From an uncultured archaeon A07HR67 (GTDB taxonomy: Archaea; Halobacteriota; Halobacteria; Halobacteriales; Haloferacaceae): DNA of 38,055 bases. Below are positions 15,540-38,055 of the stretch, one piece after another. The DNA lies in NCBI GenBank assembly GCA_000496175.1, contig KI543160.1, positions 104,316 to 142,370 on the forward strand, in the 5' to 3' direction. The position numbers and the translations under genes are program-made. How positions within the stretch are numbered: position 1 is the first letter of the stretch; every line of letters starts with the position of its first letter. Below the pieces are notes generated by a model that saw only the letters and a program-made list of their open reading frames with translations, had not been told where the DNA came from and made no database searches.

Positions 15540-16708
15540 ATGATGGATCCTGAGGATCGGTCGGAATCCGGCGAGACGGATCCAACGGATGAGACGACCG
15601 CTGGAGACGAGCCGACGAGCGCGTGTGGTCCGTCAGAGAACGGTACGCCCGGCGAGCCGACGGAGTCGAGGGCGGGCGACAGGCCGAAACGAGACGCGTC
15701 TCCGGGTGACGACGCGGAAGGTGATGCCGAGACCGGAACCAACTCCCAGCCGGACAGTCCGGAGACGGCGGCCGAGAGCGGGTCGGACGACGAGGCGAGA
15801 AGCGGGGTGGACGACGAGGCGAGAAGCGGGTGGACGACGAGGTAAGAAGCGAGTCCGGGGAGGGATCTGACGCCGGAGCGGACGACGAGACCCCGAGTCT
15901 CCGGTATCGGTTCCGTCACGACATGGAGGGGCCGGTGATGTGGCTCCGGGAGATGCTTTCCAGCGTCGCGATCGTGTTGTTGCTCGGATTGTTGTTGTTC
16001 GGAGTTAGCGGCGTGTGGCCGCCGATGGTCGCGGTCGAGTCGGGAAGTATGGAGCCGAACATGCAGGTTGGCGACCTCGTGTTCGTCACCGAGCCGGGGC
16101 GGTTCGCTCCCGACGCCGCCGACAACGGCGTCGGCGTAGTGACCCACGAGGCGGGGCGAGCGAGCGAGTATCGCACCTTCGGAGACTACGGCTCCGTGGT
16201 CATCTATCAGCCTCCCGGGAGACGAGCGTCGCCGATCATTCATCGGGCGATGTTCCACGTCGAAGCGGGCGAGAACTGGTACGACCGGGCCGACGACCGG
16301 TTCCACGGAGCGGACAACTGTGCGGAGCTGCGCAACTGCCCTGCGCCGCGTAGCGGATTCATCACCCTCGGAGACGACAACGCCGAGTACGACCAGGCCA
16401 ACGGCCTCGCCGAACCCGTGGCGTCCGAGTGGATCCTCGGCGTCGCCAGAGCCCGGGTGCCGTATCTCGGCTATACTCGGCTGATCACGACCGGTGAGGC
16501 CGAGGTGAGCGATCTGGTCGGGACGGCAGTCGCGTCGGGCGCGAGCGATCCGAACGCGGAGTCGACGTGTGTTCTGAAGACGGACGGTCGTCGGCTCTCA
16601 CGGACCGCGACCGAAGCCGAGCGAGCCGGGTGTCCGGACCTGAGGACCGCCGGTCCGCTGGCTGGATCGCGTACAACGTCGGCGACGACGCCGACCGTGG
16701 CGGCGTAA
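15540..16708 (+). CDS. signal peptidase I (Sec11 type), frameshifted in a repeat
   Basis: This is an archaeal ER-type signal peptidase, which removes signal peptides from secreted proteins at the membrane. ATG 15540 (TATA-like cttatcac about 27 nt upstream) opens a roughly 100-residue acidic disordered N-terminal region. The frame then breaks in a 24-bp repeat at 15828-15830, where GGG stands for GGGG in the previous copy. The downstream frame carries a membrane segment (SSVAIVLLLGLLLFGVSG) and the active site: Ser codon 16046 in ESGSMEP, His codon 16241 in IIHRAMF, Asp codons 16373 and 16376 in GDDN. Restoring the G gives 389 residues. A functional product starting at GTG 15830 is also conceivable. 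Confidence 0.85.
15786..15856. repeat. 24-bp tandem repeat with one copy lacking a G
   Basis: Three head-to-tail units lie at 15786-15809 (24 bp), 15810-15832 (23 bp) and 15833-15856 (24 bp, diverged). The second has GGG where the first has GGGG. That one-base difference breaks the signal peptidase reading frame. Confidence 0.9.
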
Positions 16709-16728: not shown

Positions 16729-18387
16729 TCAGTTGTCGAAGCGGGCCTGGACGAACGGCTGTGCGTTCTCGATGTCACCGAGCCGTGAGTCGGAGAGCAG
16801 CACGGCCTCGGTTTCTTCGACCGGAACCGACAGCCCCATCTCCTTGGTTCGGCCGTACCGCCCCTTCGAGACGACGACGGCGTTGACGATCCCGAGCATG
16901 TCGAGTTCGCTGATCAGGTCGGTGACGCGGCGTTGTGTCAACACGTCGGCGTCGATCTCCTCACAGAGCCGCTTGTAGATGTTGAACACCTCGCCGGTGT
17001 TGATGTTGTGGACGCCGTTCTTTTCTAAAAGAATGACGGCAAATAAAACGATCTTGCTCTGTGTCGGAAGCGTCCGCACCACCTCGACGACCCGGTCGAG
17101 CTCGATCTTGTCTTGTGCCTGACGGACGTGTTTCTCCGCGACGATCTCGGCTTGTGAGCGCTCGGCGAGTTCTCCCGCAGTCCGGAGGAGGTCGAGCGCG
17201 CGGCGGGCGTCTCCGTGTTCCTGGGCGGCGAACGCGGCACACAACGGGATCACGTCGTCGGTGAGCGCGTCGGGTTTGAACGCGATGTCGGCGCGGTGTT
17301 GAAGAATGTCGCGGAGCTGGTTGGCGTCGTACGGCGGGAAGACAATCTCCTCCTCGCCGAGACTGGATTTGACCCGGGGATCTAAGAAATCGGTGAACTT
17401 CAGATCGTTCGAGATTCCCATGATCGAGATGCGCGAGTTGGCCAGCTCGGAGTTCATCCGGGAGAGGTTGTACAACGTGTCGTCGCCGCTCTTCTCGACG
17501 AGTTTGTCGATCTCGTCGAGCATGATGACGACCACGCGTTCGTGGTAGTCGACCGCGTCGAAGAACGTGGTGTACACGCGGTCGGTCGGCCAGCCGGTCA
17601 TCGGGACCTCCTGCATCTCCTCGGCGTCCGTCTCTAGCGTCTCGATGCGGGCGTCGAGCTGTTCGAGCGTCGCAAACTGCGTTGAGGCGAGCGCGGCCGG
17701 GTTGTCGGCAGCGGCCGAGCGGAGCTCGCGACACCGCTCGAGCCGGTCGGCGATGACGCGCTGGTTCTTTTCGATGAAGGTGTTAGCGAGCTGAGCGAGC
17801 ACCCGGTACTGCGTGTCGGTCACCTCGCAGTTGATGTACTCGACCTCACAGGGAACGTCGTACTTCTGTGAGGTGGATTCGAGCTCCTGTGAGACGAACT
17901 TCGCCGAGGCGGTCTTTCCGGTTCCCGTCTTGCCGTATATCAGAATGTTCGAGGGGGTCTCGCCGCGGAGCGCCGACACGAGAATCGTCGCCATCCGGTT
18001 GATCTGGTCGGTTCGGTGCGGGAGTTCGCGGGGCGTGTACGACGGGCGGAGCACCTCTTTGTTCTCGAAGATCGGTTCACCCGAAAGGAGGTCGTCGAAG
18101 AGCCCCTGACTGTCGTCGTCGCCGCCGTCGTCGAAGACAACCCCGTCTAAGCCGACGTCGGTAGACGACCGATCACGGCTTTCGGCGTCGAGGTCGGCGT
18201 CGTCGCCGACGGCTTCGGTGTCGGTCTCGTCGACGGCGGTGCTGGTCACGGGGTCGGTCTCGGAGCTGCCAGCGCCGGCGTTCTCGCCGGATGACAGAGC
18301 CGAGTCGGGATCCTCAAAGTCCTCTCCGTCTGTCCCGTCGTCGTCTCCTTGGTCGTCGGCGTGCGGCGTGTGTTCTCTTTCGTCCAT
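16729..18387 (-). CDS. orc1: Orc1/Cdc6 replication initiator
   Basis: The product has 552 residues and is an AAA+ origin-binding protein. An acidic disordered N-terminus (about 1-100) is unusually long. Walker A GKTGTGKT lies near 150-157, Walker B VVVIMLDEIDK near 284-294, sensor 1 in ISIMGISNDLKF, and DPRVKSSLGEEEIVFPPYDANQL is the family's box with the origin-contacting loop. A winged-helix domain occupies the last 120 residues or so (RRVTDLISELDMLGIV). I chose ATG 18387 because the family-like text begins there. The frame stays open 950 bp upstream into the origin region, but that part looks non-coding. It lies beside ORB-like elements and oapABC, the pattern of haloarchaeal oriC1. It is convergent with the signal peptidase gene. 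Confidence 0.95.
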   Translation of the reverse strand: MDEREHTPHADDQGDDDGTDGEDFEDPDSALSSGENAGAGSSETDPVTSTAVDETDTEAVGDDADLDAESRDRSSTDVGLDGVVFDDGGDDDSQGLFDDLLSGEPIFENKEVLRPSYTPRELPHRTDQINRMATILVSALRGETPSNILIYGKTGTGKTASAKFVSQELESTSQKYDVPCEVEYINCEVTDTQYRVLAQLANTFIEKNQRVIADRLERCRELRSAAADNPAALASTQFATLEQLDARIETLETDAEEMQEVPMTGWPTDRVYTTFFDAVDYHERVVVIMLDEIDKLVEKSGDDTLYNLSRMNSELANSRISIMGISNDLKFTDFLDPRVKSSLGEEEIVFPPYDANQLRDILQHRADIAFKPDALTDDVIPLCAAFAAQEHGDARRALDLLRTAGELAERSQAEIVAEKHVRQAQDKIELDRVVEVVRTLPTQSKIVLFAVILLEKNGVHNINTGEVFNIYKRLCEEIDADVLTQRRVTDLISELDMLGIVNAVVVSKGRYGRTKEMGLSVPVEETEAVLLSDSRLGDIENAQPFVQARFDN

Positions 18388-18391
18388 ATCG

Positions 18392-18414
18392 TACCCCCCT
18401 GTTTCAGGTGGAGA
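18392..18414 (-). promoter_or_regulatory. ORB-like element upstream of orc1
   Basis: Read on the minus strand this is tctccacctgaaacaggggg followed by gta. It resembles the other two ORBs (TCCA, GAAAC and a G-run in the same order) but the G-run differs. It lies 5 bases upstream of the orc1 start, downstream of a TATA-like ttgtatact at about 18427-18436. It could let Orc1 control its own gene. Confidence 0.6.
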
Positions 18415-18621
18415 CGCCGCCCGCACGAGTATACAAGCGGTTGATACGGGCAAAACACCCGTTCTGAGGCGATAGTGGCGTGCGGGCGTGTCCAGTTGAT
18501 GCAGTCGAACCAGATGAAGACGTGCTACAAAAGTGTTCCTCTCCGGGACTGTGCTCGCGTGAGTCGACACGAGGATTCTCGAAGGTGTCGGCGGAGGAGT
18601 GAGCCTCGTTCGCAGCGCACG

Positions 18622-18659
18622 TTCTGTCGGTGACGGCTCATTCTGCCGGTAACGGCTGA
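18622..18659. repeat. 19-bp tandem repeat near origin
   Basis: Two adjacent 19-bp units, ttctgtcggtgacggctca and ttctgccggtaacggctga, match at 16 of 19 positions. They are followed by partly similar text (gcctgacggcgtcggtaa). They lie between orc1 and the left ORB, and I know of no function for them. Confidence 0.7.
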
Positions 18660-18810
18660 ATATCGCCTGACGGCGTCGGTAAAATAATCTCGGGCGGTGG
18701 ACCACAACAAAAGACGACGTCAGGGTGAGCGACGCGAGCGTGGATTCCGCTGGATCGACTTCCGAGAAAACGACTGGAACGGGCCCGAGCCGGTGACCAA
18801 CGCTTTGTCG

Positions 18811-18841
18811 ACCCCCACACCCCTTCGTTTCGGGTGGAACT
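18811..18841 (-). promoter_or_regulatory. ORB element (left of AT-rich stretch)
   Basis: The minus strand reads gttccacccgaaacgaaggg followed by a G-rich tail (gtgtgggggt). It shares the core GAAACGAAGGGGTG with the right-hand ORB and is inverted relative to it. It fits the origin recognition box bound by haloarchaeal Orc1. Confidence 0.8.
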
Positions 18842-18865
18842 CGATATGAAGGGGGTGGGGATGGG

Positions 18866-18970
18866 CCGTTATTGATAGCGGTAGTTTTATTATCTTGGTA
18901 ATAAAACAGGACCCTCGACAATCCCTTCCTAAATATTTCAAATATGGTTTTGTGAATAAAACGAATTCGG
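18866..18970. other. AT-rich presumed DNA unwinding element
   Basis: This is one of the most AT-rich stretches of the window. It includes the perfect inverted repeat gttttatta / taataaaac (18884-18907, 6-base loop) and the palindrome atatttcaaatat (18933-18945). Its place between two inverted ORBs suggests the site of initial strand opening. Confidence 0.7.
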
Positions 18971-19015
18971 TCTGACGACGACCGCTCACCGAGTTCAGCC
19001 TCCGGCCCCATCGGC

Positions 19016-19044
19016 GTCTCCAGTTGAAACGAAGGGGTGGGGGG
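19016..19044 (+). promoter_or_regulatory. ORB element (right of AT-rich stretch)
   Basis: The plus strand reads gtctccagttgaaacgaagg followed by ggtgggggg. It shares GAAACGAAGGGGTG with the left ORB in opposite orientation, so the pair faces the AT-rich stretch symmetrically. Confidence 0.8.
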
Positions 19045-19356
19045 CCAGCGATCGGAAGACGGCTCGTGAGGAGCCCCAGAGTGGCGACCGAGACCGATCG
19101 GAACGCGGCAGCGGCGTTTGACGCCGTCGCTCGAGTTTGACACTGTCACTCGACTCATCTTCACGAGACCCGACGGCTCGTCGACACGGCTCTGAGACGC
19201 ACTCGTCTCCGCTCGACGACCGGTTCTTCCGCGGTCAGTGTGTCTGACGCAGTTGTTAAGTGAACGGGGAGAGCATTCACCGACATACCCGCACGTGCCC
19301 GGGATCAGACCGACACACAGGGCGCTTGGGAACACATCACGGCGGTGGATATCAGG

Positions 19357-19998
19357 ATGGGATTGTTAACGAACCTCAGAGACAGCATATTGCGGGTCAC
19401 AGACGGGTTGTTCGCGGCCGATGAGCCCAAGCGAATCGGGATATACGGGCCGCCGAACGCCGGGAAGACGACCCTCGCGAACCGTATCGCACGCGACTGG
19501 ACCGGCGATGCCGTCGGGCCGGAGAGTCAAGTTCCACACGAAACCAGGCGGGCCCGCCGGAAGGAAGACGTCGAGATCGAACGGAACGGGCAGACGGTGA
19601 CGATCGACATCGTCGACACCCCAGGGGTGACGACGAAAGTCGATTACAAGGAGTTTCTCGACCACGACATGGACAAAGAAGACGCCGTCCGTCGCTCCCG
19701 GGAAGCCACAGAAGGCGTCGCGGAGGCGATGCACTGGCTCCGCGAGGACGTCGACGGCGTCATCTACGTGCTCGATTCGACCACCGACCCGTTCACGCAG
19801 GTGAACACGATGCTCATCGGGATTATCGAGTCACAGGACCTTCCGGCGCTCATCCTCGCAAATAAAACTGACCTCTCCGAGTCGGACGTCACACAGATCG
19901 CCAACGCGTTTCCGCAACACGAAACGGTACCGCTGTCGGCGCTGGAGGGGGAAAACATGGACGAAGTGTACACGAAAATCGCGGAGTACTTCGGATAA
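19357..19998 (+). CDS. oapA: origin-associated GTP-binding protein OapA
   Basis: The product has 213 residues and is a Ras-like GTPase: P-loop GPPNAGKTT (31-39), switch or G3 motif DTPGV (about 90-94), G4 NKTD (about 172-175) and a likely G5 near PLSALEG. Haloarchaeal oapA genes sit next to oriC1 and have been named origin-associated proteins. The biochemical role is not settled. ATG 19357 is preferred over GTG 19345 because the family begins MGLLTxL. A TATA-like gttgttaag ends at 19260, implying a leader of about 70 nt. The stop overlaps the oapB start by one base (TAATG). Confidence 0.88.
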   Translation: MGLLTNLRDSILRVTDGLFAADEPKRIGIYGPPNAGKTTLANRIARDWTGDAVGPESQVPHETRRARRKEDVEIERNGQTVTIDIVDTPGVTTKVDYKEFLDHDMDKEDAVRRSREATEGVAEAMHWLREDVDGVIYVLDSTTDPFTQVNTMLIGIIESQDLPALILANKTDLSESDVTQIANAFPQHETVPLSALEGENMDEVYTKIAEYFG

Positions 19999-20405
19999 TG
20001 CCGGGCGCGACTCCCGACGTCGACGGCGGCGACGACCCGGCCGACGATGGCGTCCGCATCGACATGATAAGCGGAGCCCGGATGGAGGGGCTCACTAGCA
20101 TGGAGAAGATCCGGCTCATCCTCGACGGGGTTCGCGAGGGCAACATCGTCATTCTCGAGGAGGGGCTTTCTCCCGACGAGGAGTCCAAGCTCATCGAGGT
20201 GACGATGACCGAGATCAGCCCCGACGACTTCACCGGAATCGAGATCGAGACGTATCCCAAGCCGAACGCCGGCAACAAGAGTTTTCTCGACAGGCTGATG
20301 GGGAGAGAATCCGCCCAGAAGCTCACCGTCATCGGACCTGCCAACCGGATCGAGACGCTGCACAAAGACGAGAATCTCATCAGCACGCTCGTCTCCCGAC
20401 AGTAA
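19998..20405 (+). CDS. oapB: origin-associated protein OapB (DUF2073)
   Basis: The product has 135 residues. After a short acidic N-terminus it follows the DUF2073 pattern: IDMISGARMEGLTSMEKIRLILDGV (about 21-45), GNIVILEEGLSPDEESKLIEVTM, GIEIETYP, then LMGRESAQKLTVIGPANRIETLHKDENLISTLV. It is predicted alpha/beta and KH-like in shape. The function is unknown. It is translationally coupled on both sides (one-base overlaps with oapA and oapC). The gene order oapA-oapB-oapC beside orc1 is conserved in haloarchaea. Confidence 0.88.
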   Translation: MPGATPDVDGGDDPADDGVRIDMISGARMEGLTSMEKIRLILDGVREGNIVILEEGLSPDEESKLIEVTMTEISPDDFTGIEIETYPKPNAGNKSFLDRLMGRESAQKLTVIGPANRIETLHKDENLISTLVSRQ

Positions 20406-21085
20406 TGCCCCACCAGTGTATCGAGTGCGGCCGGACGTTCTCCGACGGCTCCAAGGAAATGCTCTCCGGCTGTCCCGAGTGTGGCGGCAACAAGTTTCAG
20501 TTCAGGCCAGGCGGAACCTCCGAGCCCTCTACCGACCCGACCCCGCAAATGGAGAATTCGTCGGTCGGCCTTTCTGCCTCGTCCGAAGCGTCTGCTCCGT
20601 CCGAAGCGTCTGCTCCGTCCGAGGCCGCCAGTTCGACCGATACACTCGATCCGACGGATACGACGGAGTCGCCCGCCGACCGTTCTGACACTTCCGACCC
20701 AACCGGCTCCAGCCGGGATACCCCATCCGGTCGCGACGCGACCGACGACACCGAGTCTGCGTCCGACCGTGCCGCCGGCGACGCCGGCGAAGACACCGCA
20801 CAGGCAAGCGCCCGATCCGACGTCGTCACTCCCGACGAGCTTGACCGGGCGAGCCGGGAGGTCGAGCCGTCCGACCAGGACGACGCGACGGAGCCGCGGC
20901 CCGACATCGACGAGCTCCGCGACGAACTCAACGAGCAGTTCGAAAGCATTCGGATCGTGAGCCCCGGTACGTACGAGCTCAACCTGATGGAGCTGTACGA
21001 TCGTCAAGAATACATCATTTCTCTCCAAGAGGACGGGCGGTACGTCATCGAGATGCCCGACGCCTGGGGCGTCGACGAGGAGTGA
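20405..21085 (+). CDS. oapC: origin-associated zinc-ribbon protein OapC
   Basis: The product has 226 residues. A zinc ribbon (C5-x2-C8 and C23-x2-C26 within HQCIECGRTF...SGCPECGGNKF) is followed by a long Ser/Asp/Thr-rich disordered linker (about 40-165), part of it built from SEASAP repeats. A conserved C-terminal domain follows (about 170-226: ESIRIVSPGTYELNLMELYDRQEYIISLQEDGRYVIEMP). It is the third gene of the oapABC unit and its stop is followed by a 376-bp gap. Nucleic-acid contact through the ribbon is an inference. Confidence 0.88.
   Translation: MPHQCIECGRTFSDGSKEMLSGCPECGGNKFQFRPGGTSEPSTDPTPQMENSSVGLSASSEASAPSEASAPSEAASSTDTLDPTDTTESPADRSDTSDPTGSSRDTPSGRDATDDTESASDRAAGDAGEDTAQASARSDVVTPDELDRASREVEPSDQDDATEPRPDIDELRDELNEQFESIRIVSPGTYELNLMELYDRQEYIISLQEDGRYVIEMPDAWGVDEE
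20581..20625. repeat. 18-bp tandem repeat in oapC linker
   Basis: The 18-bp unit gtccgaagcgtctgctcc occurs twice at 20581-20598 and 20599-20616, and a partial third copy follows. It encodes SEASAP units in the disordered linker. Copy change would preserve the frame. Confidence 0.85.
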
Positions 21086-32940: not shown

Positions 32941-34408
<1,468 letters not shown>

Positions 34409-34420
34409 ACAGACCCGAGA

Positions 34421-34483
34421 CTCCCTCCAGGGAGGCTCACTTTCGACCGTCCCACACGGTCACTCGACCGTCACCAGACGGTC
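34421..34483 (+). other. three tandem hairpins in 16S-tRNA spacer
   Basis: The first is ctccct/agggag (34421-34434). Then gaccgt / acggtc occurs twice, at 34445-34461 and 34466-34483, each with a 5-6 nt loop. The second and third are near copies of each other. Confidence 0.65.
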
Positions 34484-34524
34484 ACTACTCATTCGCATCG
34501 GTCCAACTCCACGTCACCGCCGAT

Positions 34525-34554
34525 CCGGACACAGACGAACTACCGAGGCTCATA
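34525..34554 (+). other. pre-16S processing stem, 3' strand
   Basis: The sequence ccggacacagacgaactacc followed by gaggctcatac pairs with 32802-32830, forming the stem that encloses 16S. Confidence 0.8.
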
Positions 34555-34590
34555 CACGAGACGCCCCGTACCCCTCTCCACCGGAGAGGT

Positions 34591-34662
34591 GGGCTCATAG
34601 CTCAGCGGTAGAGTGCCTCCTTTGCAAGGAGGATGCCCTGGGTTCGAATCCCAGTGAGTCCA
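34591..34662 (+). tRNA. tRNA-Ala (TGC)
   Basis: This 72-nt gene lies in the 16S-23S spacer. The acceptor arms are gggctca and tgagtcc with discriminator A. The anticodon stem cctcc/ggagg carries the loop tttgcaa, so the anticodon is TGC. The T arm has ggttcgaatcc. The 3' CCA is not encoded. A 7-bp hairpin (cctctcc/ggagagg) immediately precedes it. tRNA-Ala here is the standard archaeal rRNA operon arrangement. Confidence 0.97.
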
Positions 34663-34793
34663 TGTCACCTACCGCGAATCCGTCCCCTTAACTGGGCGAC
34701 GCGATTCCGTTGGGTTACGACCGATGCACCATCCCGGGAAACCGCGGATGGGAAGGGTTCGACGAACACCCCGCCAGGGTGATTCGATGACGA

Positions 34794-34842
34794 CCGTGTA
34801 TACGTGCGATCCAGACGTCCACTGAACTCATTCGAGTTCGTG
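34794..34842 (+). other. pre-23S processing stem, 5' strand
   Basis: The segments cgtgtatacgtgcgatccag and actgaactcattcgagt pair with 37863-37911 around a short unpaired stretch (acgtcc opposite ttaccgcc). This is the bulge-helix-bulge layout cut by the splicing endonuclease. Confidence 0.8.
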
Positions 34843-34929
34843 GAACGTCAGTGAACCAATTACAGTCGGTGACTCTTTAGAGAGTCTACTGACACCGTCA
34901 GTAATTTGTATAGAATTGACTGACACACT

Positions 34930-37846
<2,917 letters not shown>

Positions 37847-37862
37847 TACGGTCACTGGACGG

Positions 37863-37911
37863 TACCACACTCGAATGAGTTCAGGCGGTAACTGGATCGC
37901 ACGTACACACG
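37863..37911 (+). other. pre-23S processing stem, 3' strand
   Basis: The segments actcgaatgagttcag and actggatcgcacgtacacac are complementary to 34794-34842 and close the stem enclosing 23S. Confidence 0.8.
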
Positions 37912-37921
37912 GTAGTCACCA

Positions 37922-37972
37922 CCGACACTGGTATCCGCGCGAGCGGTTCCGGTTCGAATCCGGAAGTCGGCA
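37922..37972 (+). other. tRNA-like mini-helix before 5S rRNA
   Basis: A T-arm-like hairpin (ttccgg, loop ttcgaat, ccggaa at 37947-37965) is followed by gtcgg, which pairs with ccgac at 37922-37926. Thus only an acceptor-like stem and T arm exist, with no anticodon arm. In Haloferax a tRNA-like element upstream of 5S is cut by tRNase Z to make the 5S 5' end, and this fits that role. Confidence 0.75.
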
Positions 37973-38055
37973 TGAAGGCGGCCAGAGCGGTGGGGCGACA
38001 CCCGTACCCATTCCGAACACGGAAGTTAAGCCCACCAGCGTACCGGGAAGTACTG
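37973..38055 (+). rRNA. rrfA: 5S ribosomal RNA, 5' part (cut by window edge)
   Basis: The sequence tgaaggcggccagagcggtg and later acccattccgaacacggaag match haloarchaeal 5S. The first 83 or so of about 120 nt are present and the gene runs past the window end. The 5' end is set just after the tRNA-like element. Confidence 0.93.

Follow-up and report, generated by a model that had tools for sequence, protein, structure and literature searches.

The haloarchaeal origin oriC1, with its ORBs, G-strings, enhancer and neighboring genes, is already known (PMC3528665, PMC3936714, PMC4010727). In Haloarcula hispanica, an AT-rich region together with two inverted ORBs was established by experiment as the minimal oriC1, and the G-strings are essential (PMC3936714). 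The oriC1-cdc6A locus of this organism and its haloarchaeal homologs have an adjacent orc1/cdc6 gene, inverted ORBs with G-strings, an AT-rich region and a gene for a GTP-binding protein (PMC3936714, PMC3528665), and the locus described here is similar in all of these respects. It differs from H. hispanica oriC1-cdc6A in its G-rich enhancer repeat, of which only the half next to orc1 is clear.

Additional initiator boxes near an origin have also been described. The ORB-rich region oriC2D of H. hispanica, downstream of cdc6E, has such boxes (PMC3936714), as does the present locus. In oriC2D there are 11 ORBs in one intergenic region, whereas no dense intergenic cluster of this type is found beside the initiator gene here, and the extra boxes occur singly or as one pair, scattered over tens of kb and in part within coding sequences. 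ORBs have also been noted downstream of the initiator genes in other haloarchaeal ori-cdc6 regions, and were read as titration sites that take up initiator and restrain initiation (PMC3936714). In a prediction for Natrinema, one cdc6 gene has both a single-ORB site and a two-ORB site beside it (PMC5350488). The autoregulation and titration of bacterial DnaA are alike in that boxes are present at the promoter region of the initiator gene (dnaA) as well as at other chromosomal sites (datA) (PMC3936714). The proteins and the boxes of the two systems are unrelated, however, and the archaeal case presented here is known from the arrangement of its sequence alone.

The window, the whole stretch of 38,055 nucleotides that was analyzed, forms one end of contig C7 (142 kb) in an assembly of 2.89 Mb that is 82% complete. 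As an origin, the locus is ordinary, one more well-formed oriC1 of the known kind. The part worth following is an ORB in the orc1 leader and the ORBs in dp1, the gene for the small subunit of PolD. No earlier description of the leader ORB or of the dp1 ORB pair was found in the oriC1 literature covered, which excludes Norais 2007 and Coker 2009. These extra ORBs matter because the ways in which archaea limit the amount of their initiator are poorly known. The features of the origin and its neighboring genes are as follows.

15830-16708: signal peptidase gene, a conserved neighbor of oriC1
16729..18387, minus strand: orc1, oriC1-type Orc1/Cdc6 initiator of 552 amino acids (NF001625, 654 bits, cut-off 501)
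18809..18840, minus strand: ORB-L with its outward G-string (44.1 bits at 18815-18840; contains the exact 14-mer)
18851..18860, plus strand: clear half of the G-rich enhancer repeat, on the orc1 side (from the sequence; role from PMC3936714)
18872..18965: AT-rich stretch, candidate duplex-opening site, holding the most AT-rich 60-mer of the window
19017..19046, plus strand: ORB-R with its outward G-string (41.7 bits at 19017-19042; contains the exact 14-mer)
19357..19998, plus strand: oapA (arvA), small GTPase (small_GTP, 55.6 bits, above the cut-off; MMR_HSR1)
19998..20405, plus strand: oapB (arvB) (PF09846 OapB, 145.5 bits)
20405..21085, plus strand: oapC (arvC) (PF09845 OapC, 96.8 bits)

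An earlier sequence-only reading of this DNA had proposed that orc1 and oapABC diverge from a region with two inverted ORBs that share a common sequence and enclose an AT-rich stretch. The profiles bear out the divergent arrangement of these genes, all of them intact, with orc1 at 16729-18387 on the minus strand and oapABC at 19357-21085 on the plus strand. The Orc1 protein has a Cdc6 lid and a C-terminal winged helix (Pfam profiles), and the nearest relatives of its gene are haloarchaeal oriC1 orc1 genes. An initiator gene of the oriC1 type is thus adjacent to the ORBs, and the profiles also identify the other haloarchaeal oriC1 neighbors, the GTP-binding protein gene with the rest of oapABC and the signal peptidase gene. 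The place of oapA and the order of the genes match the published description (PMC10927574). OapA, OapB and OapC have since been renamed ArvA, ArvB and ArvC, as OapA is a GTPase that drives the formation of extracellular vesicles in Haloferax, and the name 'origin-associated' is therefore uninformative on replication (PMC10927574). In at least 17 of 51 genomes of the genus, oapA and the ORBs are separated by about 8-12 kb, and the two are directly adjacent in the window. The corresponding stretch of one of these relatives (G048, C1:1640000-1654500) has genes for a CoA-transferase, a thiolase, a TetR protein, an amidohydrolase and an FAA-hydrolase.

The ORBs were scored with a weight matrix of 26 columns, trained on 60 flanking ORBs of other genomes. 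Exactly three sites on the two strands of the window have scores above 4 bits, and two of them, ORB-L and ORB-R, form the inverted pair that had been proposed. They are located on opposite strands, 202 bp apart, and each ends in a halophile G-string that points outward. The shared 14-mer, GAAACGAAGGGGTG, has exactly two mismatch-free copies in the window, at 18818-18831 (minus strand) and 19026-19039 (plus strand), and GAAACRAAGGGG is matched exactly at only two places in the entire 2.89 Mb assembly, ORB-L and ORB-R. Between them is the AT-rich stretch, and no 60-mers elsewhere in the window are as AT-rich as those with starts at 18882-18902 (42/60 at 18885-18945). At the place of the clear enhancer half (18851-18860), several of the relatives listed have a C-rich run. 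The half of the enhancer repeat on the oapA side is degenerate, and half enhancer repeats are reported from other haloarchaea as well (PMC3936714). The same overall layout is found in 75 loci with an ORB pair, with a median spacing of 228 bp.

The third site, ORB3, is located between this core and orc1, in a region with the following features.

18389..18414, minus strand: ORB3, immediately before the orc1 start codon and pointing toward orc1 (10.4 bits)
18489..18546, minus strand: orc1 promoter block, with the BRE/TATA-like GAGAGGAACACTTTTGTA followed by the box TTCATCTGGTTCGACTGCATCAACTGGAC (covered in 51/51 relatives of the genus)
18491..18499, plus strand (opposite to ORB3): TCCAGTTGA, possible half-ORB inside the promoter box, a direct repeat with ORB-R (GGCGTSTCCAGTTGA)

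The sequence-only reading had noted a third, more divergent ORB beside orc1. The site itself is real, although its score is far below those of the origin ORBs on the same matrix, but it does not belong to the minimal origin, since the minimum determined by experiment in H. hispanica is the AT-rich region and two inverted ORBs (PMC3936714). Of 32 haloarchaeal loci from outside the genus, 29 carry an ORB-like site at this position. The promoter block of 58 bp has sharp edges in all 51 relatives of the genus, and the leader between this block and ORB3 is variable. The promoter box is unique in the genome, even with up to 3 mismatches allowed. A related box, defined as a match to at least 9 of the 11 letters of TTCAACTGGAC or ATCAACTGGAC, is found in 24 of the 32 loci outside the genus, 71-78 nt before the ORB-like site (74-78 nt in 23 of the 24). 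An initiator box is thus conserved in the promoter or leader of the initiator gene, with ORB3 and the promoter box at a fixed spacing. The better reading of ORB3 is that of a conserved leader element of orc1, as it directly precedes the start codon and its distance to the promoter is constant among haloarchaea. The segment TCCAGTTGA in the promoter box resembles half an ORB; the nine shared letters are weak evidence, and the resemblance is suggestive only.

A conserved leader of about 115 nt that ends in an initiator box is unusual, as 72% of the coding transcripts of Haloferax volcanii are leaderless (PMC4983044). The simplest reading, in which we infer the start of the mRNA, the binding of Orc1, and repression or titration, is that Orc1 regulates its own gene through ORB3. 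Transcription of the gene would be driven by the TATA box near 18530 and would give a leader of some 115 nt that closes with ORB3 at the start codon, where bound Orc1 would hold down its own production. Two other candidates for the leader were rejected. For a riboswitch or small RNA, an alifold analysis of 52 leaders gave only a small hairpin inside ORB3, in which three of the five pairs are invariant and compensatory changes lend no support, and a comparison with Rfam yielded no credible match. For a leader peptide, the frame through the box (TTC ATC TGG TTC GAC TGC ATC AAC TGG) lacks a start codon and is closely preceded by a stop.

A different explanation is that ORB3 is not a site for Orc1 at all, its G-run being a ribosome-binding sequence and the remainder due to chance or part of the orc1 promoter. 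The G-run is indeed a few nucleotides before the start codon in the genus, near the position expected for a Shine-Dalgarno sequence, and could serve partly as a ribosome-binding site. However, the TCCAnnnGAAA half of ORB3, which has no role in ribosome binding, is kept in 29/32 of the loci outside the genus, and in those loci the ORB site often ends 12-13 nt short of the start codon. We therefore consider this explanation unlikely, and retain the autoregulatory reading of ORB3. In orc1 loci of methanogens and related archaea (L041, L044, L049, L050 and L068), ORB-like sites are found on the orc1 strand about 88-100 nt before the matched start, and a promoter-proximal ORB may therefore predate the haloarchaea.

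ORBs are also present farther from the origin. The pattern TCCANNNGAAACNNNGGGGT has six copies in the assembly, all on contig C7, and the control with the reversed pattern has none. Three of the copies are ORB-L, ORB-R and ORB3, and the other three (starting at C7:34947, 72677 and 86941) are accessory sites.

C7:34947-34966: accessory ORB within a gene of the beta-carotene-dioxygenase family
C7:72677-72696: accessory ORB just past the 3' end of cgi121, beside a hel308-like gene
C7:86941-86960: ORB inside the N-terminal part of the dp1 coding sequence (NF003116, 852 bits for dp1)

An inverted GTTCCAGTTGAAAC is located about 45 nt before the ORB at C7:72677-72696. Twelve near-complete genomes of the genus together have 34 ORBs outside the origin, and 33 of these are no more than 45 kb from oriC1; most share one strand, and several unrelated genes are represented. 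The binomial value for this clustering (2e-48) treats sites and genomes as independent and is not taken as a probability. One accessory ORB of the genus, between serA and a CBS/CNNM-like gene, is not found in the source genome. In a broader set of 39 genomes from ten families, the reversed control is zero everywhere, and among the matches listed most are near the ORB pair, with some farther away.

The accessory ORBs, and above all those of dp1, may take up Orc1 or tie the expression of PolD to the level of Orc1. Their proximity to oriC1, their shared strand and their placement at unrelated genes would also suit sites that mainly organize or segregate the chromosome, like parS, rather than regulate orc1 or dp1. 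The sites are few, however, and the best conserved of them are at replication genes (orc1 and dp1), which fits better with regulation or titration. To our knowledge, no segregation protein binds ORBs, which also counts against such a role, and we regard it as improbable. Regulation or titration by Orc1 is preferred for these sites.

For the origin itself, a shift in GC skew near the ORBs had been named as a check by the sequence-only reading. Along the 142 kb contig, the cumulative GC skew climbs to a maximum at position ~20,164 of the window, 1.1 kb from ORB-R, and then falls, placing an extremum at this locus. Predicted origins of Haloquadratum are likewise near maxima of the cumulative GC skew (PMC3119063). 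To the right of the turn, the contig continues for only 18 kb before it stops in an rRNA operon, and as a result the skew is supportive rather than decisive. This operon (16S, tRNA-Ala, 23S and a cut 5S), at 32941-38055, is the last feature of the contig, at a distance of 14 kb from the origin, and accounts for the low GC content there.

The type of initiator, the synteny, the inverted ORBs with their G-strings, the AT-rich site and the skew maximum all support the assignment to oriC1, and the region is very probably the working oriC1 of this chromosome. By analogy with the studied members of the oriC1 family, monomers of Orc1 would bind both inverted ORBs, with the winged helix on TCCAnnnGAAAC and the AAA+ domain on the G-string. 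Orc1 at the ORBs around the AT-rich stretch would recruit MCM there, and replication would be bidirectional from about 18.9 kb. Alternatively, oriC1 could be intact in sequence and yet dormant, and the chromosome would then be replicated through recombination or from different origins. Haloferax mediterranei does have dormant origins whose ORBs are intact (PMC4595724), and another Orc/Cdc6-like gene is present at C15:497399-498487. However, the ORBs, the G-strings and Orc1 are all intact here, the skew maximum of the contig is at the site, and no oriC1-type ORBs (the one type of box covered) are found around the gene on C15, which was rejected as a second origin. Dormancy is thus highly unlikely, and we take oriC1 as active; as the assembly is 82% complete, other origins may be absent from it.

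Of 28 loci near orc1, 27 have an ORB in the N-terminal coding part of dp1, and among 30 genomes sampled across the order, 25 have one on the dp1 strand; the genomes share ancestry, and these counts show constraint, not independent origins. Some genomes have no dp1 ORB, including both members of one genus (G062 and G076). Where two ORBs are present in dp1 they diverge, like those of the origin, with a spacing of 56 bp (ten genomes) or 53 bp (three) in the 30-genome set, and the 28 loci add a few pairs with wider spacing. On the dp1 strand, the ORBs always have the same codon phase, and the codons CCA, GAA, and ACG or ACA are each used in 25/25. An alternative in which a conserved protein motif (SPVETEG-like) gives rise to these ORBs incidentally, and they have no role as DNA sites, would agree with the constant phase and strand, but it is strongly disfavored and very improbable, since synonymous recoding with the protein kept predicts an ORB on the dp1 strand in 0.74 genomes against 25 seen (0.34 against 14 on the opposite strand), and since CCA and GAA are invariably used though they are minor codons in dp1 (6% and 24%).

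With the dp1 ORBs taken as DNA sites, the chances appear even that they and the leader site act through Orc1, by feedback or titration. The arrangement suggests a broader model, in which Orc1 may control both itself and the replicative polymerase through class-wide ORBs outside the origin, comprising an orc1-leader ORB at a fixed distance from the promoter and a divergent dp1 pair 53 or 56 bp apart under selection at the DNA level, all within tens of kb of oriC1; we hold this model to be evenly balanced between true and false. Conserved across haloarchaeal families, the leader box and the dp1 box pair give precise predictions that are testable in Haloferax or Haloarcula. In the source genome dp1 is located 36 kb from the origin, in one relative 40 kb, and the ORB is kept in both.
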